Shown one piece after another: positions 14-11,021 of a stretch of DNA of 33,118 bases. Made by a program: the position numbers and the translations under genes. The notes under the pieces are model-generated. The model saw nothing but the letters and a program-made list of their open reading frames with translations, did not search any database and was not told the DNA's origin. Numbering within the stretch: position 1 is the stretch's first letter; the number at the start of each line of letters is the position of its first letter. The stretch lies in contig JAALKB010000014.1 of assembly GCA_011088265.1 (NCBI GenBank), forward strand, positions 1-33,118, written 5' to 3'. This DNA is from Gammaproteobacteria bacterium. GTDB lineage: Bacteria > Pseudomonadota > Gammaproteobacteria > Arenicellales > Poriferihabitantaceae.

Positions 14-328
14 CTATTCTAATACCCCGTAGCTTGCTGCGGGGTAGTTTATTGCTTTAGGCTGAATTGACAGCTGACCTCTGGCAAGCATATCTTTGCC
101 GAAATCTGGAGGTATCTGAATTATTTTTTTATCCTCAGTAAGGAGTAAAACTGTTCCCTCCTCATGGAGAAAATCCCCATCAATGAGCGTCACCCCTCCT
201 TCTAAAAGACCGAAATCCACAAACTGATTGTAGATCAGATCCCATACCTCAATAATCTTCCCACCCTTAGAAAACCCGATTCCAGCGCCATAACGAATCA
301 TGCCCATGGGCCCAAGTTGGTGGGTCAC
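14..328 (-). CDS. Uncharacterised 104-aa protein, last gene of the Ubl operon
   Basis: Not recognised. It is a small soluble protein with no membrane segment or cysteine motif; the middle alternates short hydrophobic strands with charged turns (for example VTLIDGDF and TVLLLTEDKKIIQI), suggesting a small beta-rich fold. The start is GTG at 326-328, overlapping the TGA of the upstream JAB gene in a GTGA four-base overlap, so the two are probably translationally coupled. This position makes a role with the JAB protease or the Ubl likely by context only. It ends 13 bases from the window edge, so further operon genes could lie beyond it. That it is a real gene is supported by the tight overlap; the function is unknown. 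Confidence 0.7.
   Translation of the reverse strand: MTHQLGPMGMIRYGAGIGFSKGGKIIEVWDLIYNQFVDFGLLEGGVTLIDGDFLHEEGTVLLLTEDKKIIQIPPDFGKDMLARGQLSIQPKAINYPAASYGVLE
23..46 (-). terminator. Weak hairpin at the 3' end of the operon
   Basis: A 7-bp inverted repeat (TACCCCG at 23-29, CGGGGTA at 40-46, 10-nt loop) lies just before the stop of the 104-aa gene. No U-run follows on the minus strand, so it is at best part of a terminator or an mRNA 3'-end stabiliser. Confidence 0.25.
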
Positions 329-1209
329 GAAACACCGATGCCAATTACGATTACCTGAGACATTCGATCAAGACATTCCTTAATTGCAACCACATTCTCC
401 GAGTTGTTCAGGCTGGAAGCAATTTGCAGTATTTTCAGGAAGGTATTGTAATATGATCTATGCATAGCACGATCCGGATCAGTTTCAGGGTCTGGCTTTT
501 GATTTTGATCTCGCAATACCTTCCGAATGAGATGATCATTCGAGAACCCCAGATCATCAAGAATAGTGCTAATAGTGTCGATAAAAACGTTTATCTCCAG
601 CTGTTCTTCTTTCAAAGAATTATAATAACGGGCAGTTGGTTCCCCGATGGGATCTCCATATGTCATTTTGGTAAAATACTCTGGAATCTCTATCAGATCA
701 TCCCCCTCCATTCTCCAAAACCCAATGGGCCACCCTGGCTGCCCCCCCACCACCACAGCACTGACATGCCAATGCTTCGGAAAATGAGATGAATGCAAGG
801 TTGTATCAAAACCTGACATAAAAGGGTCTCCCAATCCAACATGAGAGTGAAACCATCCCACCACATAAAGTTCAGTATCATTCGCAAGGTTACTGTGCAA
901 ACTCAAAAGCGCCTGACTATCAAATTCATAGTGGGTAATGCTGGTATTCGAGCTTGGAAGCTCGAGCGCTTTGGTAATCTCTACCACAACCCGGGAACCA
1001 CGTTGATAATGTACCCCAAGTAACACACCACCGATTTCTCGCTTCGGGTCAGCTTGCGATACCTGACGCATTCTAATTAGTGCAATATCGGTGATGTAGA
1101 GAGTAAAATTCTGACCACTGTCTAACACATAGCTAGGAATATCCCCCGGGATTTCATAGGGCATAGTGCGCTTCTTGACACTGATCTCAAAGTCACCGGA
1201 GTTCGTCAT
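325..1209 (-). CDS. JAB/JAMM (MPN) metalloprotease, deubiquitinase-like
   Basis: Predicted zinc isopeptidase that would remove or process the Ubl encoded next to it. The JAMM motif is complete: E58 in REIGG, then H121-S-H123, S132 and D135 in a stretch matching HSH...SGFD. There is one extra residue between the HxH and the serine compared with Rpn11, and Val replaces the usual Pro after HxH. The MPN domain spans about residues 35-175. Residues 185-294 form a helical C-terminal extension of unknown role, making the protein longer than a bare JAB domain. ATG at 1207-1209 starts the gene; its A and TG form an ATGA with an in-frame TGA of the preceding reading frame. Known biology: JAB proteins accompany E1/E2/Ubl operons in bacteria. 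The substrate is inferred. Confidence 0.93.
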   Translation of the reverse strand: MTNSGDFEISVKKRTMPYEIPGDIPSYVLDSGQNFTLYITDIALIRMRQVSQADPKREIGGVLLGVHYQRGSRVVVEITKALELPSSNTSITHYEFDSQALLSLHSNLANDTELYVVGWFHSHVGLGDPFMSGFDTTLHSSHFPKHWHVSAVVVGGQPGWPIGFWRMEGDDLIEIPEYFTKMTYGDPIGEPTARYYNSLKEEQLEINVFIDTISTILDDLGFSNDHLIRKVLRDQNQKPDPETDPDRAMHRSYYNTFLKILQIASSLNNSENVVAIKECLDRMSQVIVIGIGVS

Positions 1210-1262
1210 ACAAATGACCCCACAAGAGAACTGCGAAAATCAGATCCGGCTCTTGCTTCATG

Positions 1263-1523
1263 CTATACAACGAGACTATCCCCATCCTTCACTCCCGCGC
1301 TGTCGAGGGTTTCCGTGGTACCCAAAACTCGCTCTCCCTCTTTCCACAAGAGTTGATAGTCGATTGCACTGCCATCCGCACCTGTCTTGGGCAGTCCAAT
1401 ATCAGCTAGCCCTATCAGTTTTTGTACTAACTGATACGTTGTAACAGTGATGGGTAGTTCCAAGTCCCAGGTATCTTGCCCAAAAGCAGTAGTAAGACGA
1501 ATTGAAATATCATTATTTGACAT
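1263..1523 (-). CDS. Ubiquitin-like protein, YukD/EsaB-like beta-grasp, no C-terminal Gly
   Basis: An 86-aa single-domain protein. The pattern of a first beta hairpin (DISIRLTTAFGQDTWDLEL), a helix around TYQLVQKLIGL, and a final GVKDGDSLVV strand matches the YukD/EsaB class of beta-grasp ubiquitin-like proteins. It sits between the E2/YbjN-like genes and JAB, so it is the likely conjugated or signalling protein. The tail stops at the last beta strand with VV; there is no GG or even a single terminal Gly, which classical E1 chemistry needs. Reading on through the TAG gives 18 more codons, ending exactly at the TGA that overlaps the JAB start. ATG start with GGAG about 12 bases upstream. Fold call fairly good; conjugation is inferred from context. 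Confidence 0.8.
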   Translation of the reverse strand: MSNNDISIRLTTAFGQDTWDLELPITVTTYQLVQKLIGLADIGLPKTGADGSAIDYQLLWKEGERVLGTTETLDSAGVKDGDSLVV

Positions 1524-1548: not shown

Positions 1549-2079
1549 TCAGGAAAGTGATGATGCATTGTCGCGCAGGATTTCAATGGCGAAATCCTCA
1601 TCATCAGCGAACTCGTTTCCATTACCCAACTCAAGTTGGTTCTTAACCGAAACATAAAGGGTAGCGACTGAAGGATTAGAAACAAGGAGAGAGATGTTTT
1701 CGATCTGGTGCTGGGCATACTTTAAAGCTGCCCTGAATACAGACATGGAATAAGGTTCCGAACACTGGTTTTTAGGGATATCAACCTGCATGATCACCCG
1801 CTGGTCCTTCAAGAGAAATTTAAATTGAGGAACTGACGCATTTGCCTCACAGAGATATTCCTGAATAGCTACCCGGCTCTCACTGGGAGTTCCTTTTGTC
1901 ATAAAAAATTGCATACTCACCCAGTGTTTCATCAGTCGAATATGTACTTCGAGCTCTTTCGCCGTTTGAAATGGAAGCCGAATAGTTGTCCCACTTCGAA
2001 TCCAACTACTATCCATTCGAAGATATTTCCATCCAATTCGGTCCAGATATCCCTCAAAGGTACTAATGGTGGTAGCCAC
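1549..2079 (-). CDS. YbjN-like / type III chaperone-like fold protein
   Basis: A 176-aa protein with an N-terminal helix followed by YLRMDSSWIRSGTTIRL, a strand pair around LEVHIRL and WVSMQFFM, then a helix and a second half (VIMQVDIP, then a long helix from about SVFRAALKYAQHQIENI). This alternation resembles the YbjN / T3SS-chaperone-like fold, often a protein-binding scaffold. No catalytic residues are apparent. The start is GTG at 2077-2079, 12 bases after the E2 stop. Lying between E2 and Ubl, it could be a chaperone or adaptor for the Ubl or for conjugation targets; that is inference. The family call rests on pattern only and needs a profile search. Confidence 0.55.
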   Translation of the reverse strand: MATTISTFEGYLDRIGWKYLRMDSSWIRSGTTIRLPFQTAKELEVHIRLMKHWVSMQFFMTKGTPSESRVAIQEYLCEANASVPQFKFLLKDQRVIMQVDIPKNQCSEPYSMSVFRAALKYAQHQIENISLLVSNPSVATLYVSVKNQLELGNGNEFADDEDFAIEILRDNASSLS

Positions 2080-2091
2080 TAATTTTTACAC

Positions 2092-2625
2092 TCAATTGTC
2101 AGTATTTTTTCGCCGTACAACAGCCATGTCGAAGTCAAGGTCCACTACCGGACGATTGTCCAGAGGGAAAAGATCCTGATCCAGTTTTGCTCTAACCCAA
2201 TCCGCGGCCTTGCGGTTAAGAGGGTCAGCAACGTTAAACTCTTTATACTGAACCATATGAACAATGTTAACCACCAGATCAGATAAAGAGTCCGTTCCAG
2301 CCCACAGATCGCCGAGGCACACTTCGTTCCCGTTAAAATTGGGATGAAAGATTGAGGTTTCCCATTGAATTTCGGGTGGCGCAGATGGAAACAGATGTCC
2401 AAGGGACATTCGGAACCTATGAGTAGTTACCTCGACGAGATTGAATTCCTCGTCTTCGGCGGGGTTATTACAGACTCCTCTACAATTTACGGTAACCTGG
2501 AAAGCAGTAGGGGGATCACCTTCCGGCTCAATGTCGACAATGCTGCTCCTTTCGTTCAGGCTAGCCAACTCCCTGGCCTCATGTAAAAAGCGACGTATCT
2601 TCCCGGATGTATTCTTATTTAGCAT
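2092..2625 (-). CDS. E2 (UBC-fold) ubiquitin-conjugating enzyme homologue
   Basis: Predicted Ubl carrier that takes the thioester from the E1 and passes it to a target. The UBC signature is plain: F93-H94-P95-N96 (HPN), then the catalytic Cys103 in NEVCLGDLW seven residues after the Asn (eight in UBCH5, so one residue shorter). A following helix leads to VADPLNRKAADWV, matching the conserved DPLNP.AA segment of E2s. The N-terminal helix RRFLHEARELA and the strands to EIQWETS are also in order. So this is an apparently active E2, not a Cys-less variant. The ATG at 2623-2625 has AAGGAG about 12 bases upstream, inside the end of the E1 gene; the genes are 9 bases apart. Confidence 0.92.
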   Translation of the reverse strand: MLNKNTSGKIRRFLHEARELASLNERSSIVDIEPEGDPPTAFQVTVNCRGVCNNPAEDEEFNLVEVTTHRFRMSLGHLFPSAPPEIQWETSIFHPNFNGNEVCLGDLWAGTDSLSDLVVNIVHMVQYKEFNVADPLNRKAADWVRAKLDQDLFPLDNRPVVDLDFDMAVVRRKNTDN

Positions 2626-2634
2626 TACGTTAAG

Positions 2635-3801
2635 TTACTCCTTCAATCCCAATTGGTCCCATAGCACTGGTTTAATCAGAACAGAAACCTTCTTAATTTC
2701 TCCCTCTTCCTGAGCGAAAGCATAAAACCTCCCTCCATCTGGAAGTCCTAAGCTTAACAGCATCTCTGGTACCCGCCAACCGCTATTTAGTGGAATTTGT
2801 GAAACCGGTTTCCACTGACTGCTGTCTGTTAGCTCACCGGCAAACGATGCTGGTTTTATGTGTCGAACCGATCCGATGTCTCTATAAAACAAATTCACTG
2901 GAAAATAAAAATTGACTGCAGGACCCAGGGTTTGCTCGATCACCGCCTCAAACTCCTCCCACTTCATATCGGCATTGAATCGCAGAAATCTCGTATTCGA
3001 CTTTTCCGGATGATACCTACAGTCGAAATTTCTGGGTAAGCTATACTTATCAATAGTAGATTTTCCAGAATGGTAGCGCAGGCTCTGTCCAGGAAGAAGG
3101 CCCTGGCCCCATCTTTCGACAAAAGTATCTCTAAAAAGATAACGCAAACCTTCCTGAACCATCAAAGCTCCAGTTACCGAGGAGGTAATTGGGGTCGTTG
3201 GAACCCCTTCACTCGCCTGGACCCTTTGAGCGAACATACTGCACGACTTACGAAGCGTTATATCCCGCATCTCGTGGATGCCGATACCACATGAAAAGCA
3301 AACGTCTTGCTCAAAGGGACGAAATGCACTTACCACCCCCTCCCAGGGAGTCAATCCACCATCCAGATACAGTGTATCTGCTTCTGCACAAAGTAAAGAG
3401 AGCTCTAACCTGGCCTCAACGTTATCAAGACACCCAAAAACAATATCCGCCTCCCTAACCAGATCCAAACCCACCTCTTCCTGTAAACGACCATTGAGCC
3501 CAACAACCCTGCAATCCGGATTGGTATTTTTCATCCCTTGCGCTGCCGCAGTAGTTTTGGGAGAGCCTACACTCTCCGCAGTAAAAAGCACAGATCGGGA
3601 CAGGTTCCCTGCTTCCACATAATCCATATCCACCAATATTGTTTCACCCCATCCGATAAGCGCCAGGTTTTTTATGACCTCATTGCCCAAAGCCCCACAG
3701 CCACAAACAATAGCGCGCGCGACTTTTATACGTTTGTAATCCCACCAATCGAGTCGGGATAAACTCTCGTACCTAGGGGGAACTTGCTCGTTCACCGTCA
3801 T
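2635..3801 (-). CDS. E1-like ThiF/MoeB-family activating enzyme
   Basis: Predicted to adenylate the Ubl C-terminus and form a thioester. With the ATG at 3799-3801 (388 aa) the Rossmann motif GCGALG is at 34-39, the ribose-binding Asp pair at D58/D60, the N66-x2-R69 ATP residues, K82 and D126. A CxxC (C168, C171) is followed 16 residues later by C187 in KSCSM, which lines up with the catalytic Cys of E1s such as UBA2. A second zinc pair might be C261/H264, though this is unsure. Residues about 265-388 form a C-terminal extension with hints of a beta-grasp/UFD-like domain. The ATG has AGGA about 10 bases upstream; an in-frame TTG at 3831 has no such site. It overlaps the RING gene by 29 bases. 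Confidence 0.95.
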   Translation of the reverse strand: MTVNEQVPPRYESLSRLDWWDYKRIKVARAIVCGCGALGNEVIKNLALIGWGETILVDMDYVEAGNLSRSVLFTAESVGSPKTTAAAQGMKNTNPDCRVVGLNGRLQEEVGLDLVREADIVFGCLDNVEARLELSLLCAEADTLYLDGGLTPWEGVVSAFRPFEQDVCFSCGIGIHEMRDITLRKSCSMFAQRVQASEGVPTTPITSSVTGALMVQEGLRYLFRDTFVERWGQGLLPGQSLRYHSGKSTIDKYSLPRNFDCRYHPEKSNTRFLRFNADMKWEEFEAVIEQTLGPAVNFYFPVNLFYRDIGSVRHIKPASFAGELTDSSQWKPVSQIPLNSGWRVPEMLLSLGLPDGGRFYAFAQEEGEIKKVSVLIKPVLWDQLGLKE

Positions 3802-4303
3802 AGAATATTTTTCCTGTTTCCTCTGGGACAAATTTACAATGCCTGCATAGACAAGGTACTTTATCCTCCACCAATGTGTCCCAACAGTCTATATGGTAAG
3901 GTGTTTTACAAAGAGGACAATAAATCATTTCCGCATCCAGATCACCTGATCCCCTACAGTATGTGCAAGATTGATCATGAGACAAAGGGGTGCGTTTGAA
4001 TATTTGCCTAAATTTAAAAACCTCTCCTTGACAGACAAGCACTTGTCCGTGACGAACTACACTCAACGATTTTACACTTCGCCCATCAACAGAAACTTCA
4101 AGGTCCGTGGGTATGATGCCGCAAACCCCGCTTTCTGAATAAAACACCCAGAATCCATCGCTATAACACATCCCCTCACTGGAATCTGATTTAAAACGCT
4201 GTTTTCGACTGAGAAAGAGAGCTTCTCCCCGCTTTTGTGGAAAATAAATCCTTTCTTCTTCATCACCCAAGAAATATGGGGTTAGATCCAGATCCTTCGT
4301 CAT
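3773..4303 (-). CDS. RING/PHD-type zinc-finger protein, candidate E3
   Basis: A 176-aa protein whose C-terminal third holds a cross-brace zinc finger: C113-x2-C116-x12-C129-x2-C132-x4-H137-x2-C140-W, then C151/C153-x2-C156. This C4HC3 spacing fits RING-variant/PHD and the prokaryotic RING families found with E1/E2 genes, so an E3-like role is likely. The N-terminal part (about 20-105) is beta-rich with DLEVSVDGR and a Gly-rich turn, reminiscent of the end of an FHA domain, but this is weak. An ORF extends upstream to 4384, but the ATG at 4301-4303 has a GGGAGG site 8-9 bases ahead and overlaps the preceding TGA as ATGA, so it is preferred. It lies directly upstream of the E1 gene and overlaps it. 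Confidence 0.82.
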   Translation of the reverse strand: MTKDLDLTPYFLGDEEERIYFPQKRGEALFLSRKQRFKSDSSEGMCYSDGFWVFYSESGVCGIIPTDLEVSVDGRSVKSLSVVRHGQVLVCQGEVFKFRQIFKRTPLSHDQSCTYCRGSGDLDAEMIYCPLCKTPYHIDCWDTLVEDKVPCLCRHCKFVPEETGKIFYDGERASSP

Positions 4304-4932
4304 TGGCCGACCCTCCCGTAAAGCCGGTGGAAATAGCCATCTTCTGAACCAAGCTCCCATGCCATTTCTCCTGCGAGACGACAAAGCTCACCCGAAAAAT
4401 TATCATTCAATGATATTTCACCTAATTTGTTGGCTAACCGTCGAGCCAGATTAATCGGTAGCCGCCGCAATAATGCATAAATGGGCAGATTTCCCAATAA
4501 CATGGAAATGCTTTGATCATCACCATCACGTAAAATATTCTGAACATCATCCATCGTTTCCGTCTCACCTTGCTCCAATCGCTCGACCATTATTTGCCTG
4601 ACAATAGTAGATTTCCTGGAATTCAAATTACCAGTCTCTATACCTCTTATATTCTCCCTGAGAAACTCGTAAAACAAATCTGAAAATCCGCTGGAATTCA
4701 ATTTCTCCACATCGCTCGGAAGCTCAGTTATTGGCCTGTTTAGCTTGAGTTTGTATCCCATTGAATCGTACAAAGCGATCTTGCCACTCACCCTCATTTC
4801 GTTCGGGTTATCGTTAAAGTGAGCTTCTTTTCCACTGTCCTTTGGACTCTGGCGTTTGAATTTATCAGAGCCCTTTGGAGCGCCTGATTCTACGGTCTTG
4901 TTATCTTTGTGGAATGTTGAATTTGAATTCAT
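4300..4932 (-). CDS. Uncharacterised 211-aa helical protein of the Ubl operon
   Basis: Not recognised. The first 50 residues are polar and Lys/Ser/Asn-rich, probably disordered; the rest is predicted helical with repeated Leu/Arg helices (LLRRLPINLARRLANKLG). No cysteines in zinc-finger spacing and no membrane segment. The ATG at 4930-4932 is used here; an in-frame TTG at 4965 would overlap the preceding TGA as TTGA but has a GAGGA sitting directly against it, too close for normal initiation. The 3' end overlaps the RING gene by four bases (ATGA), pointing to co-translation with the E3-like protein. It could be an E3 partner or substrate adaptor; this is inference from position. Confidence 0.65.
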   Translation of the reverse strand: MNSNSTFHKDNKTVESGAPKGSDKFKRQSPKDSGKEAHFNDNPNEMRVSGKIALYDSMGYKLKLNRPITELPSDVEKLNSSGFSDLFYEFLRENIRGIETGNLNSRKSTIVRQIMVERLEQGETETMDDVQNILRDGDDQSISMLLGNLPIYALLRRLPINLARRLANKLGEISLNDNFSGELCRLAGEMAWELGSEDGYFHRLYGRVGQ

Positions 4933-4961
4933 AGTTAACCATTGGCCACTGAGATGTGAAA

Positions 4962-6677
4962 TCAATCCTCTTCGTCTCGTCTTGAAATTTTTAATTCGAA
5001 ATCATCACTTGCTCCATCAGTGCTTTCAGATTTTTTCGCTCTAATGTTGGGGTTGACCAGGATATCTCCACACTTATTGAGAACCCATTGCACCTTATCT
5101 TTTATATCTTCAACCTTATCTGAGGAATGAACAGTCTTTATAATCGCAGTCTCCAGAGAACTAGAAAGCCTCTTCGCCATTACATTCTTATCTTCCCCGC
5201 AAAAAAACTTATCGGGTAAGCTCCATATAGGATCCACTGCAGTCAAGAGATTTCTGGTGCTGTTCAAAGAATTACCTAACCCGGACTTCACAATAGGAGG
5301 TTCTTTTTCAAATTTTTCGATTGCTGCAAAAAACTCACTCTCGGTGCTATAAAATATTAAATCAGACAACCACTGAAGATGCCCAAAATAACTTGTTGAA
5401 TCCAGGTTCTTCCAATCGCATAATTCTTCAACAGCCTGATGTATTTTCGGATTATTTGGGAAGTGAAGATCTAACCAAACCTTACGATCCTCAAGGTGAG
5501 TCCATTGCAAAGCTATCTGTGTGGAAAGGCAGTGAATATGCTTTTTCTCCCCTCCAAACAAATTGGGTTGAGAATTGGAAGACCGGGAATCCAATGACAC
5601 GCGATCAGTCACAATAATGGCATTACCCAATTTGGCATCGTCACAACTGGATAGCCAGCTAAAATCAGCGAACAGATCACGAAATTGCGGTGTATATTCG
5701 ACCAATACCAGCTCATCGCCATTGGTCCTGGTGCCGAGAAAATAGTCTTCGAGTCGAGATAGACGGTGTCGCGTAAACCGTTTTCCCTGGTTTTGCAGAT
5801 GTATCCTGATTTGTTCTATCAGCAGATTTGCCAACGAACTGTCATTACTATTAATCCATAACCATTTATGGTTATTGCCAATCTCACTGATCAACCTCTT
5901 TATCTTGTCAAAGTGTTGATAACCATAACCCAGCATGGACTCAGGCGTTGAATAAACAACTTTAGGTCTGGTATTAGTGGCTACCAGAGAACTTACGTCC
6001 TGATTCGTGGCACGGTTCCCCCCGATCTCAGTACTCTGTCCCAATGCTGACATAAACTCCGATTCCTGTTCATCCCAATTGCTGAAAATCTCCGCAGCCA
6101 ACTTAGTCCAAATAGCATGCAGTGGCTCAGGTTCTCCCTCCAGACAATCATCATGCCAAGAACCAATTGATTGGGCCATATTATCCTTCTGTGGATAGAC
6201 TAACGAAATGCGATGTCCCCCAGGATGCCCCGCTGAAGCCGGTGTTATCTTTCCAAGGTTAGCCTGTAACGGATCCCAACCCCAAGCAAAATAGTATTCA
6301 CATCGAGAGCGGAAATATTTTTTTATTTCCTTGATGGTTTCTTGTTCTTCACCCTCTGCGTCCTCGCGTCTTTCATCAGCAGGCTCTAAGCCCAAAAACC
6401 AATCAAGACACTCGACTATGTGTGTCTCACCAAAAGGAGGCGGATTTCGGTTTGCGAAACTTTTAGGATAACGGAAATGGGAACCCTCAGGAACGACCTG
6501 GTTTACCCTCCAATTTGAGCTCCCAGTTGCAAATATTTGATCGGAACGCCCGGTTACAAACACACTGTCAAAATAACCCTCTCTGACCAGCGTTTCCAAT
6601 GCAAATCGAGATAGTAGAATGTTGTTTGGAATATCTGCTGGAACACCTACAGAAGAAAATGGTGTCGACTCGCTCAA
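4962..6677 (-). CDS. Uncharacterised 571-aa protein, possible degenerate P-loop NTPase core
   Basis: No family recognised. Residues 271-290 (KWLWINSNDSS followed by a helix), 322-330 (ELVLVEYTP) and 353-359 (AIIVTDR) have the order strand-loop-helix, acidic strand, strand seen in P-loop ATPases, with the Walker A Gly/Lys lost (INSNDSS). This might be an inactive AAA/STAND-like core, but the match is only by eye. The C-terminal 40 residues are charged and probably disordered. The start is TTG at 6675-6677, 7 bases after the stop of the 92-aa gene; no better start is visible. It has no signal peptide. Its size and central place in the operon suggest a scaffold or target-recognition subunit working with the AAA protein. 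Confidence 0.7.
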   Translation of the reverse strand: MSESTPFSSVGVPADIPNNILLSRFALETLVREGYFDSVFVTGRSDQIFATGSSNWRVNQVVPEGSHFRYPKSFANRNPPPFGETHIVECLDWFLGLEPADERREDAEGEEQETIKEIKKYFRSRCEYYFAWGWDPLQANLGKITPASAGHPGGHRISLVYPQKDNMAQSIGSWHDDCLEGEPEPLHAIWTKLAAEIFSNWDEQESEFMSALGQSTEIGGNRATNQDVSSLVATNTRPKVVYSTPESMLGYGYQHFDKIKRLISEIGNNHKWLWINSNDSSLANLLIEQIRIHLQNQGKRFTRHRLSRLEDYFLGTRTNGDELVLVEYTPQFRDLFADFSWLSSCDDAKLGNAIIVTDRVSLDSRSSNSQPNLFGGEKKHIHCLSTQIALQWTHLEDRKVWLDLHFPNNPKIHQAVEELCDWKNLDSTSYFGHLQWLSDLIFYSTESEFFAAIEKFEKEPPIVKSGLGNSLNSTRNLLTAVDPIWSLPDKFFCGEDKNVMAKRLSSSLETAIIKTVHSSDKVEDIKDKVQWVLNKCGDILVNPNIRAKKSESTDGASDDFELKISRRDEED

Positions 6678-6684
6678 AGTCGTC

Positions 6685-6963
6685 TTAATGACCCGAATAC
6701 ACAGCCGGACATACCGAGCGAGCTCTTTCTAACCACCTCAGATCTGGGGCATCATTCCGTGGCTGCTCCCCTTTCCAATCCCGTAAACTGATATAATTTT
6801 GCATACGCATTCTGGCGTGGTTTAGCAAGGCCCGTACGCTGATGGGCTCTCGTCCTGCCATTGGATTCAGACAGACCCAAGCCCCGTATCCAACAAAAAG
6901 CGCTGTTCTCTGGCGTTCTTTTTTCGCCGTCTTTAGTGTCTTAACTAGTGTCTCCAGTTCCAT
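6685..6963 (-). CDS. Uncharacterised 92-aa basic protein of the Ubl operon
   Basis: Not recognised. A small basic protein with an N-terminal amphipathic helix (ELETLVKTLKTAKKERQR), a short hydrophobic strand (TALFVGYGAWV) and a further helix (RALLNHARMRMQNYISL). The ATG at 6961-6963 lies 21 bases after the AAA gene stop, and its own stop is 7 bases before the next gene, so it belongs to the same transcript. It could be a small regulator or adaptor of the AAA ATPase. No evidence for a specific function. Confidence 0.6.
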   Translation of the reverse strand: MELETLVKTLKTAKKERQRTALFVGYGAWVCLNPMAGREPISVRALLNHARMRMQNYISLRDWKGEQPRNDAPDLRWLERARSVCPAVYSGH

Positions 6964-6984: not shown

Positions 6985-8691
6985 CTAATTGTATACAGGG
7001 GTTTCATCCCAAACATCAGTGGGTAAGGCATCTAAAACCACTGAAGATGATGCTGAAACAGAAATTTGCTCGTCTTTTGGCACATAGTCTCTGTACTTTT
7101 CCTCAACTTCTTCTGCCTTATCCTTATAACCTTTATCCTGAAGGGCTTTAATCGTCTGAGATAACCACTCTCTAATATGATAGGTATCCTGTTGTTTAAC
7201 GGCAGTTGATAAAACCCGGTAAGGAAGCGGCGTTGCTTCTATCGACTCTGAGTCAAGTATCTCTCCCAAATGAAGTTTGAAAGCTGTTCGCACAGCTTTT
7301 TCTATATCTCCAGGCGTCAGTCCATGGGTCGTTTTCAATAGATCATTCCAATCGATCTCTTTCGGTCTTAGGCCTTCAGGGTGGCTTGCGATATGAATTT
7401 GAAATACTGATTTTCTAACTTTTTCATCCGGCATATCAGCAGCAATCATTTCATCGAATCGGCGCAACATCGCCAAATCGATAAGATGCAAGTGATTTGT
7501 GCCTGCAAAAAATAATACCTTTCGCTTGGATTCCCTCAATCGATCCAACTCCTGTAAAAAATGAGCCACCTGAGTATTCCTCCAGTCCTGTCCAGAGCTA
7601 TTTCTCCCTTGACCAAGTCCATCTATTTCATCTGCAAACAGGATACAGGGTGCTCTGTCGATTGCTTCGTTAATGACATCGGTCAGTGCTTTTTCGCTTT
7701 CACCAACCCACTTACTCATCATGTCATTGATCCTCATTCTGATAACGGGAAGATCATGACCAAAATCAGTCTTGTGTTGATTAGCAAAAGCGTTGATCAC
7801 ATAGGTTTTTCCACACCCGGAGGGGCCATGGAGCAAATAGGAACCCATCTCACTACCCAAAATACTGGCCACTTTGTCAAGACCCAGTGACCATTCCGAA
7901 AAATGTAATTTGTAAATCCGTCTTAGCTCATTAGAAAACGTTCCTGCTTGATCGGAACCAGCCACTTTTGAGAAATCAAGCGCGTCCGCAATGCCTTTTT
8001 CTGTCCGGTCCAGCTTTTCTATTTCTTCTTCAAAAACTTTCAGTCTGGGATGGTCAGAGCTAACAGCAGACAGCGAATTGTAGGTTTCCTGAAAGGCGTC
8101 ATTGTTTCCGCTTCTCCATTGAATAAGGACTTTACTTGCCAGAACTTCTGCGGCCAAAGACTTGGTCAGGAAGGGTGATTTCAATGGAATACTATCGAGT
8201 AACTCGCGGTATTCGTCGCACTTAGCTAAAGCATCAGCTGCGTCCTCCATCTCCTCCACACCCTCCAGTATCCCTGCCAACGTATCGCAGAGAATATCAA
8301 CGAGGTCAGAATAGGAAATAACTGAGTTCGCGGAAGTCAACGAAGAATGACCCAGACAATGGAGTAAACGGGGCAGCGCTTCGGTGAGATCTCTATTTGC
8401 GTAATGCGCATAACCCAGAAGTGCGGCGACATCCGGGGATTCTCCCTGGCTTTCCTTTTCTGCAATAACAAGATCATCAATGATTCTCTGCTCGGAAGCC
8501 CAATCCTCGTCATCGTCTTCAGCCAGAAGCTGGATCGAAACCCATGCTCTGACCAGAAACAGCTGCCAAACAGTCAGCGAAGAGCAAAGAGTAATAGCAG
8601 TATGAAGCAGGTCGAGCGCCTCATCCCAATCTTTTCGATCTATCGCCTTTATTGCCTGTTGATAGGCCGCGTAGTACGAATTAGTGTTCAT
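6985..8691 (-). CDS. Classical AAA ATPase with N-terminal helical repeats (p97/Vps4-like core)
   Basis: A 568-aa protein. Residues 1-230 are helical with TPR-like pairs (IKAIDRKDWDEALDLLHTAI near 15-34), probably a substrate or adaptor-binding platform. The AAA domain at about 250-480 has Walker A GPSGCGKT (289-296), Walker B LFADEID (351-357), sensor-1 N399 and arginine fingers R410/R411. It also has KWVGESEK (327-334), the match of the p97 D2 pore loop MWFGESE, so it is likely a hexameric threading unfoldase or segregase. The tail (about 490-568) is helical then Ser-rich. It belongs to the same minus-strand operon as E1/E2/Ubl/JAB, 27 bases after the preceding gene. A Cdc48-like role on Ubl-tagged proteins is inferred. 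No peptidase gene is nearby. Confidence 0.95.
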   Translation of the reverse strand: MNTNSYYAAYQQAIKAIDRKDWDEALDLLHTAITLCSSLTVWQLFLVRAWVSIQLLAEDDDEDWASEQRIIDDLVIAEKESQGESPDVAALLGYAHYANRDLTEALPRLLHCLGHSSLTSANSVISYSDLVDILCDTLAGILEGVEEMEDAADALAKCDEYRELLDSIPLKSPFLTKSLAAEVLASKVLIQWRSGNNDAFQETYNSLSAVSSDHPRLKVFEEEIEKLDRTEKGIADALDFSKVAGSDQAGTFSNELRRIYKLHFSEWSLGLDKVASILGSEMGSYLLHGPSGCGKTYVINAFANQHKTDFGHDLPVIRMRINDMMSKWVGESEKALTDVINEAIDRAPCILFADEIDGLGQGRNSSGQDWRNTQVAHFLQELDRLRESKRKVLFFAGTNHLHLIDLAMLRRFDEMIAADMPDEKVRKSVFQIHIASHPEGLRPKEIDWNDLLKTTHGLTPGDIEKAVRTAFKLHLGEILDSESIEATPLPYRVLSTAVKQQDTYHIREWLSQTIKALQDKGYKDKAEEVEEKYRDYVPKDEQISVSASSSVVLDALPTDVWDETPVYN

Positions 8692-8718: not shown

Positions 8719-9018
8719 TTAATTGAAAATCGGAACCTCTGGGACTTTCAAGCCAATCCATGGCTCTACGCCGGAACGCCAAAAACACGATGTAAAACCA
8801 CTCTCTTGGGCTTCGAGCGGTGAGTCATGAGTGATTCCGAGCGCCCCCAGCTGTAGCGGTGAGCAGTTTGAAAAGAATGACTCAGAACAAACAAGGGCAT
8901 CCGCTTGAATATGAGTATTTATCGACAAGGAAGGATAATCCCCAAATACGATAAAAAAACACACCCGTTGCTCATGGTTTTTCGCTTGGGAGCATATCTT
9001 GCAAATTAACTTATACAT
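8719..9018 (-). CDS. Uncharacterised 99-aa Cys-containing protein
   Basis: Not recognised. It has six cysteines (C6 and C9 as CKIC near the N-terminus, then C20, C45, C52, C78), which might bind a metal, but the spacing fits no known finger. The ATG at 9016-9018 overlaps the TGA of the preceding gene by one base (TGATG), a common coupling arrangement, so it is preferred to an upstream in-frame ATG at 9066 that would overlap by 49 bases. It lies 27 bases before the AAA gene. Moderate confidence that it is a real gene; function unknown. Confidence 0.55.
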   Translation of the reverse strand: MYKLICKICSQAKNHEQRVCFFIVFGDYPSLSINTHIQADALVCSESFFSNCSPLQLGALGITHDSPLEAQESGFTSCFWRSGVEPWIGLKVPEVPIFN

Positions 9019-10151
9019 CACTGGACATGGGTCACTGATATAAAAAAAAGGGGGCTTCCATTCCAACTCGCAAGATCAGAATATTTTCCAGACCTGGAAT
9101 AACTCTTTATTATTTCTTCTTCTCCAATACTGATGAAGTAGCGAATGAGCAAAAATAGGCTCCGCAGGGTATCTGACTCGGTTTCCTTTTTTCTGATGTA
9201 CTGACTCGATTCTCGAGGGTTAATAACTACCTCATAAGAAAACGCCTTTTTGAGTCGTGAAATCCACCTGTCAATGAAATATACCTCCCTGGCAGACACG
9301 CTAATAGAACCAAGCTTTTTGGAATTCTCACCCTGCTCGTCTAATCTCTGGATTGTCGTTTTTTCCGATGCATTTTTATCGGCTTCAAGAATCTCACTAA
9401 AATTGCTCTGGTCCAGATCGAAAATGAATTCAAGTGCCTGTTTCGAGCCTTCGGGTTCGCCTCTCGCAAATGAACGCAATAATTCTCTGCTCACAGGATG
9501 GCCTATGCTGTCAATTAGCTGCCCGAGTTGGAGATTGTTGTCTTCAAGATATCTGTTTTTTAAATCCAGGTTTGGTGGTGTGGAAGACGAAATCCATCGT
9601 ATTCCACACCCTTCGTTTCGGAACTGACTCGCGATAAGAATACCAAGAGCCTCACTGTCTTTTCCGAAACCAATAATGGATCCATGGTCCGGGGTAAATT
9701 GAACGGGAGTATGTCGGGTAGCATCAAAACCCACATCCAGTTTACTTTTCTCTTCTGCTGGAAGCCTATCCTTCGTTTCAACTCCTGGAAAAACGCTCCC
9801 CTCGGAAAGACCATGGATTGCCGGACTAATATTTGCTCTGTCTCGCCGAGGACGAACGATAGTGGCATTGGATAAAATAGTCTTCGGACTCTTAATTCTT
9901 GGCGATATCAATTTCGATCTTTCAAACCATTGCCTACAAATTTGTAAAGGCAACCATTTTTGACGCTCCCCGATCCATTTCGCCTCACGAGCGTGGAGGT
10001 ATTTTCCCGGTTTGCCAAATTTTGAGCCATAACGCTGCCAGTTAGCCCAAGTGCTGGGCGGCAACCCCCTAACCAGGGACCATAGATAAAAAGGATTAAC
10101 AGGAGGCTCGAACTGTTTTGTGGCTGGCTCGAATGTCTCGTGGAGAGACAA
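9018..10151 (-). CDS. Uncharacterised 377-aa protein of the Ubl operon
   Basis: Not recognised. The first 130 residues are basic and Trp/Pro-rich (repeated W at WSLV, WANW, KWIG, KWL, QWF), then a region with PDHGSIIGFGKDSEALGILI, which has strand-turn-helix character, and a mostly helical charged C-terminal half. No membrane segment and no zinc motif. The start is TTG at 10149-10151 with GGGGA about 6 bases upstream, 12 bases after the end of the preceding gene. Co-transcription with the Ubl genes is clear; the role is unknown. It is a candidate target-recognition or effector subunit, by context only. Confidence 0.65.
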   Translation of the reverse strand: MSLHETFEPATKQFEPPVNPFYLWSLVRGLPPSTWANWQRYGSKFGKPGKYLHAREAKWIGERQKWLPLQICRQWFERSKLISPRIKSPKTILSNATIVRPRRDRANISPAIHGLSEGSVFPGVETKDRLPAEEKSKLDVGFDATRHTPVQFTPDHGSIIGFGKDSEALGILIASQFRNEGCGIRWISSSTPPNLDLKNRYLEDNNLQLGQLIDSIGHPVSRELLRSFARGEPEGSKQALEFIFDLDQSNFSEILEADKNASEKTTIQRLDEQGENSKKLGSISVSAREVYFIDRWISRLKKAFSYEVVINPRESSQYIRKKETESDTLRSLFLLIRYFISIGEEEIIKSYSRSGKYSDLASWNGSPLFFISVTHVQ

Positions 10152-10163
10152 CAGTGTTCCCCA

Positions 10164-11021
10164 TCAGGAATTTGATTTTCCACCATCGATGTTTTCTAAA
10201 AACCCCTTGTGGCAGTTCACAAACAGATATGAAAGTGGTTGCACTCTCCAACGCTCTCGAGCAGGAATCACATTCATCAAATCTCTAATGTCATTGGGCT
10301 TTGCCATCATCATGGAATTTATTGAGTCATTGGCAATACACATGCTCTCTAAAGCCGCCAGGGCATAGTACCAATCGTCCATTCCAACAGCAAGGTGAGC
10401 GTGGCCACCCCATGGTATATATTCACTCTCTTCCTTGCCCGATCTTCGAATCAGCTCCGTAACAAGCGCTCCCTGTGTAGCCGGACGATTCTGATCAGAA
10501 AGAGGTGGCAACTCACCCTTTCGACCAAAGGCAATAGCTAACCGTTCCTTCTTAGGCTCCCATGTTTCGAGCAAATGATTAGTGGGTTCGCTTTTAAGTT
10601 CACTATCCATAGATAGTGCCTGAGTCAAACTAATGTAGTTTCTTGCCAGGCCAAGATCGTGCGTAAAATTATTTTCAGCACGCGCACGTTCCCAAGCGTA
10701 TCTGGCCGCCCCAGTATTCCCTAAATCAAGGCACAGTTTTCCAAAACCGATCCACCACTGGTCATCGGTATCAAACGTTAGTAGTACTGATCTTAGATGG
10801 GTAGACTCAACTATCTTCTTCCCGGAAGAAGAATTCGTTGACTCAAAATGGAAGTCATCCTCTGATACCAGATTAAGAACTGCATTGGCTAAAGCAAACC
10901 CATTTATCTCGCCTGCATCATATCTCGCCAGTAACTTCTTAATTTGTGTTCTAGCCCTTCTCTTTCTAGAAAACAATCTCACTCTCCATCGATCTATTTG
11001 GCACAGGCAAACTCCGCGCAA
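10164..11021 (-). CDS. Uncharacterised helical (TPR-like) protein, first gene of the Ubl operon
   Basis: No named family recognised. The 285-aa product is helical after residue 20; the segment around DQWWIGFGKLCLDLGNTGAARYAWERA has the W...G...L.G....A...Y..A rhythm of a TPR repeat, and a second such stretch occurs near WYYALAALES. The longest frame starts at TTG 11019-11021; a second in-frame TTG at 10974-10976 has GGAGAG 5-6 bases ahead and may be the real start (270 aa). The promoter candidate at 11071-11099 lies just upstream, making this the first gene of the block. The helical repeats suggest protein binding, as in the AAA partner. Confidence 0.68.
   Translation of the reverse strand: MRGVCLCQIDRWRVRLFSRKRRARTQIKKLLARYDAGEINGFALANAVLNLVSEDDFHFESTNSSSGKKIVESTHLRSVLLTFDTDDQWWIGFGKLCLDLGNTGAARYAWERARAENNFTHDLGLARNYISLTQALSMDSELKSEPTNHLLETWEPKKERLAIAFGRKGELPPLSDQNRPATQGALVTELIRRSGKEESEYIPWGGHAHLAVGMDDWYYALAALESMCIANDSINSMMMAKPNDIRDLMNVIPARERWRVQPLSYLFVNCHKGFLENIDGGKSNS

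Follow-up and report, generated by a model that had tools for sequence, protein, structure and literature searches.

A putative RING-type ubiquitin-like gene cluster of a gammaproteobacterium with a single-module TPR-like AAA ATPase that may act on tagged proteins

The window (the whole stretch of DNA that was analysed, 33,118 nucleotides) is an entire contig of a 4.17-Mb gammaproteobacterial genome and contains a tightly packed series of minus-strand genes that encode, in order, a AAA ATPase, the proteins p92, p571 and p221, a RING/PHD-like protein, an E1, an E2, p176, a ubiquitin-like protein (Ubl), a JAB protein and p104. The E1 (2635..3831, minus strand, as is every gene of the operon) is of the ThiF type (ThiF, 7.2e-40) and shares a conserved cysteine in an SC motif with the E1s of two related loci, L033 and L034, in the alignment. 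The E2 (2092..2625) has the UBC fold (UQ_con, 2.1e-8) and, as judged from alignments, a conserved HPN motif and a candidate catalytic cysteine, Cys103. The Ubl (1263..1523) is a YukD-like protein of 86 amino acids that ends in LVV before a TAG codon (PF08817, 47.4 bits against a cut-off of 27, 3.4e-12), and the JAB/JAMM protein (325..1209) is isopeptidase-like (PF01398, 8.1e-9; PF14464, 4.3e-8), such that four components of a conjugation pathway, E1, E2, Ubl and JAB, score above their Pfam cut-offs in one gene cluster. The RING/PHD-like protein (3773..4384), a treble-clef protein and candidate E3 whose true start probably lies further inside this reading frame, reaches 22.7 bits with Prok-RING_1 (E 9.9e-5), below the cut-off of 29.1, with a homologue in an Anaerolineae locus (L093) at 65 bits and a relative in a Micromonospora locus (L035) at 4.8e-14. 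Similarly, p176 (1549..2079) is YbjN/TY-chaperone-like by a weak Pfam match (0.049) and by its counterparts in L035 (TY-Chap1, 3.6e-4; YbjN, 1e-3) and L093 (YbjN, 7.8e-6). The first-pass annotation, made from the DNA letters, had placed the AAA gene in a bacterial Ubl operon, and these assignments agree with it.

Six further proteins of the operon match no family: p92 (6685..6963), for which no relative was found either, p571 (4962..6677), p221 (4300..4965), p104 (14..328, at the contig end) and two proteins encoded upstream of the AAA gene across a 326-bp gap, p377 (9018..10151) and p285 (10164..11021), the latter matching, marginally and over a short stretch (E 0.013), an 833-aa protein that precedes the AAA protein in L035. 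No family or relative of p571 was found in any library searched, nor a convincing relative in the PDB, and the idea that p571 is a degenerate AAA partner was rejected after a negative profile comparison, an uninformative PDB search and a single-sequence AF2 model with a pLDDT of 36. Judged by translations and by Pfam matches in the flanks, the remainder of the window looks metabolic, with no mobile-element or defence genes apparent.

The AAA gene (6985..8691) encodes a protein of 568 amino acids with a TPR-like N-terminal region (residues ~1-235), a single classical AAA module (~283-480) and C-terminal helices. The Pfam search returned one AAA match only (PF00004, residues 285-417, E 1.8e-28), and the core (residues 283-472; 7276..7845) contains Walker A (GPSGCGKT, 289-296), the pore loop SKWVGESEKA, Walker B (ILFADEID, 350-357), sensor 1 (TN, 398-399) and paired arginines (410-411). 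The first-pass annotation had listed the Walker motifs, sensor 1 and the arginine pair; all are present and, in an alignment with the AAA protein of Micromonospora antibiotica (37% identical over the full length), all are kept, with the pore-loop region mostly so (VG 329-330, EK 333-334). The TPR-like repeats that had been proposed alongside are likewise supported by TPR_2 matches, weak for the window protein (E 0.074) and stronger for its relative (E 3.2e-4), and by a low-confidence AF2 model in which residues 4-235 form about eleven helices, for the most part at pLDDT 50-90. As the AAA domain was poor in this model, which was built from two sequences (pLDDT 53 overall), a fold search with the AAA model was given no evidential weight. 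A second stop codon lies directly behind the TAG that ends the gene, and readthrough at this position was dropped from consideration. The last residues, VYN (6985-6996, minus strand), have the form of the HbYX proteasome-docking motif; the Micromonospora protein ends in HLRR.

The protein had also been described as Cdc48/p97-like, which, from the sequence comparisons, holds for the AAA core with its aromatic pore loop and not for the family as a whole. Among solved structures the core is nearest in sequence to Cdc48-type modules. For the pore loop, which the first-pass annotation had matched to p97 D2, the alignments place an identical SKWVGESEKA in the D2 module of VAT, the archaeal VCP-like ATPase. 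Kinship with the Cdc48 family is nonetheless unsupported, because Cdc48/p97 requires tandem D1 and D2 modules and a second module is absent from the window protein, because Pfam recognised no Cdc48 N-domain family in its helical, TPR-like N-terminal region, because its score with the CDC48 subfamily model was 116 bits against a cut-off of 802.65 (in a range similar to its scores with IetA, PAN, CdvC and FtsH), and because in the AAA tree it grouped with bacterial TPR plus single-AAA proteins (96/90), outside Cdc48 D1, Cdc48 D2 and FtsH. Since the tree is small (28 sequences) and the branch of the window protein long, this placement is of moderate confidence; profile scores were 126.5 for the TPR family versus 126.8 for Cdc48 D2 with the window protein, and 126.9 versus 115.8 with that of L035. 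Members of the TPR plus single-AAA family (L003, L004, L005, L006, L009 and L011) consist of N-terminal TPR repeats, recognised by Pfam, and one classical AAA module, as in the window, and hhalign related them to the window protein with a probability of 99.95% over the AAA half, with the N-terminal regions unaligned. Their loci, fetched at ~3.6 kb, contain TPR-only neighbours and no Ubl genes. These members come from the window's class, and several of them lie beside TPR-only genes. The bacterial Cdc48 relative Cpa, for its part, has two AAA modules (PMC6017811).

The distribution of the operon was surveyed by a scan of genome contigs with an E1 alignment, which kept 80 loci. The best of these, L035 from M. 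antibiotica, has the order RING-E1-E2-YbjN-Ubl-JAB-833aa-AAA and is the only kept locus with a full-length AAA relative, making two loci in all with this ATPase; a single-protein scan of genome contigs with the AAA protein gave no relative, and no full-length relative was found in the viral contigs or plasmids searched. In the trees, the window and L035 form a clade both by their E1s (100/98) and by their AAA modules (100/100). Because L035 belongs to another phylum and carries the same Ubl block with the same AAA, we take the pairing not to be a matter of chance, and E1, E2, RING-like protein, YukD-like Ubl and JAB, joined to a AAA motor with a helical repeat region, form a unit that is conserved in two phyla. 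In Micromonospora, a SIR2_2-domain protein, a possible effector, is encoded after the AAA gene (L035:18572-19441). No AAA of the window type was found in the other E1-relative loci examined, mostly from Planctomycetota, Chloroflexota and Bacteroidota. A mobilizable cyanobacterial plasmid of Crinalium (L034:8203-11680) encodes a small set of E1, E2 and JAB with no AAA. The E2 was found in one of 109 genomes of the order and one of 388 of the phylum, with a strong match once among 251 Micromonosporaceae, and so sporadic a distribution suggests horizontal spread.

The Ubl of the window departs from its relatives at its C-terminal end. Behind LVV-TAG the same frame continues as HEARAGSDFRSSLVGSFV to the next stop (window 1209-1265, minus strand; the continuation itself occupies 1209..1262), such that an intact EARAG tail, matching the REARAG of the Micromonospora Ubl, lies behind the stop codon. 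The Ubl of L035 ends in TREARAG followed by DRTAGAAT, and most of the listed relatives end in ...AG, often with a short extension that could be trimmed by JAB. An in-frame TAG ahead of a conserved tail implies that the window copy is possibly broken or mis-sequenced, and at the level of sequence a sequencing error, a nonsense mutation and readthrough are indistinguishable from the present data. A reading of TAG as pyrrolysine was rejected as a general recoding, since no PylS scored above its cut-off and 6 of the 19 long open reading frames of the contig, where TAG is an ordinary stop, end in this codon. The in-frame TAG of the Ubl raises the question whether the operon is non-functional in this genome, or the AAA gene an unrelated neighbour, for which the several genes that match no family and the lack of relatives in the order could also be cited. 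We consider this very unlikely, as the other reading frames are open, the enzyme motifs are present, the gene spacing is tight, the tail sequence survives downstream of the TAG, and a second phylum pairs this AAA with the same Ubl block.

An Anaerolineae locus connects the Ubl block with a different ATPase. In L093 the order RING-E1-E2-YbjN-Ubl-JAB is kept behind Pup-proteasome genes, in one run (L093:2335-14520) of a Pup-proteasome-type ATPase (487 bits against a cut-off of 505), a Dop-like protein, a PafA-like protein, a HEAT protein, RING, E1, E2, YbjN-like protein, Ubl and JAB, and there is no AAA of the window type, indicating that the latter is not obligatory for the Ubl block. Ten further Anaerolineae loci contain E2, Ubl and JAB, mostly E1 and often RING, and no AAA was detected in them. 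In Micromonospora, pafA precedes the RING gene by ~1 kb on the same strand (L035:6821-9992). In view of L035, L093 and this pafA, an unfoldase next to a Ubl set is a recurring theme.

These neighbourhoods bear on the claim of the first-pass annotation that the ATPase acts as a segregase with no peptidase partner. Pfam and family searches recognised no peptidase family other than JAB in any operon protein, and to that extent the claim stands; yet, with six operon proteins lacking a family match, this means that none was recognised, not that none is there, and a peptidase or effector could be hidden among the six. Moreover, as two related loci have Pup-proteasome genes next to the Ubl block, a segregase-only mode of action, with no degradation, may not be true of the whole family. 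The ATPase might instead hand Ubl-tagged proteins to a host protease, a Pup-type proteasome in actinobacteria and an HslV/Clp-type protease in the window host, a possibility that gains from the positions of the Ubl block in L093 and of pafA in Micromonospora, from the HbYX form of the VYN end and from a remark by Kaur et al. (2020) on the coupling of Pup genes to a related Ubl system (PMC7159879). We nevertheless regard it as improbable: the VYN end is not conserved in Micromonospora, and the genome of the window host holds one HslV-type proteasome-fold gene, beside a AAA gene, with no other proteasome-fold gene and no Pup ligase found. VYN was dropped as a docking motif on the grounds that the L035 relative lacks it and that no 20S proteasome was seen in the window host.

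No paper that describes this very operon turned up in the literature searches. Close parallels among described systems include the RING-type Ubl systems of prokaryotes (Burroughs et al., 2011, as cited in PMC7159879), in which YukD-like Ubl, E1, E2, RING and JAB are clustered, as they are in the window with a RING-like protein, and the FtsH-ternary conflict systems that Kaur et al. (2020) described, in which RING/E1/E2/JAB sets accompany an FtsH-type AAA, MoxR and vWA (PMC7159879). The window operon resembles the latter in combining a Ubl set with E1, E2, a RING-like protein and JAB, a classical AAA and unmatched proteins, whereas FtsH-ternary systems have MoxR, vWA, a protein with two AAA copies of which the first is inactive, and a Ubl-E2 fusion, compared with one AAA with intact motor motifs and separate Ubl and E2 genes in the window. 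No operon protein matched MoxR or vWA at E 0.1, a search that could miss a very divergent vWA. A classical AAA is also found in IetAS, whose IetA was the best PADLOC match of the window AAA, but with NCBIfam IetA this protein scores 96 bits, where the cut-off is 510, and the subtilase (IetS) family was not found in the operon. The layout of the operon differs both from FtsH-ternary systems and from Cpa.

Another possible role for the ATPase is that of a remodeller. Akin to TRIP13 acting on HORMA proteins, it would open or close a complex built from proteins of the operon itself and thereby turn on an immune or stress effector, with no action on Ubl-tagged substrates. The top PADLOC matches of the window AAA were the anti-phage ATPases IetA and TRIP13, with both models matching other classical AAA proteins comparably; the sporadic distribution and the SIR2_2 protein of Micromonospora would fit such a role, and controlled assembly and disassembly has been proposed for FtsH-ternary systems that contain Ubl (Kaur et al., 2020; PMC7159879). 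We think it unlikely, though less so than delivery to a host protease, given that the operon has no recognised partner of the HORMA, subtilase, MoxR or vWA kind and that the rest of the window has no apparent defence neighbours.

The reading that we favour, and to which we give an even chance, is that a RING-type Ubl pathway includes a single-ring AAA unfoldase whose substrates are proteins or complexes tagged with the Ubl. It draws support from the motor motifs that both AAA proteins keep, from the same kind of operon in L035 and the clades that this locus forms with the window, from the recurrence of an unfoldase next to the Ubl set, from the single HslV-type gene and the lack of a recognised Pup ligase in the window host, and from the sporadic distribution. 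In this pathway, E1, E2 and the RING-like protein would attach the Ubl by its C-terminal ...AG tail to targets, and JAB would trim and remove it. The AAA protein would assemble into a single hexameric ring, with its TPR-like region binding either the target that bears the Ubl or an adaptor, for which p176 and the window-specific proteins come into question, and its aromatic pore loop would thread the target, pulling it from a complex or unfolding it. As the operon has no recognised processive peptidase, the protein would, once released, refold, stay inactive or go on to a general protease. Against this proposal, only two loci contain the AAA gene, L093 has the Ubl block and no such AAA, a peptidase or effector could be hidden among the six unmatched proteins, and a TAG interrupts the Ubl of the window ahead of its conserved tail, such that this copy is possibly inactive. 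The narrower proposition of a Ubl tag-plus-segregase system, with a TPR-AAA motor in the same operon, no dedicated protease and a status as an independent counterpart of the Cdc48 branch, is put forward more tentatively and falls somewhat short of even likelihood.

Bacterial E1-E2-RING-Ubl-JAB systems are already known, and the question addressed here is the fate of the proteins that they tag. The operon has a dedicated AAA motor that is conserved between two phyla, and in a third phylum the Ubl block stands next to Pup-proteasome genes. The AAA protein may work like Cdc48 on Ubl-tagged proteins. If so, bacterial Ubl tagging would be read by ATP-driven unfoldases; bacteria would couple tagging to ATP-driven unfolding with no dedicated protease, and the eukaryote-type logic of tag plus segregase would have arisen with a AAA family other than Cdc48.
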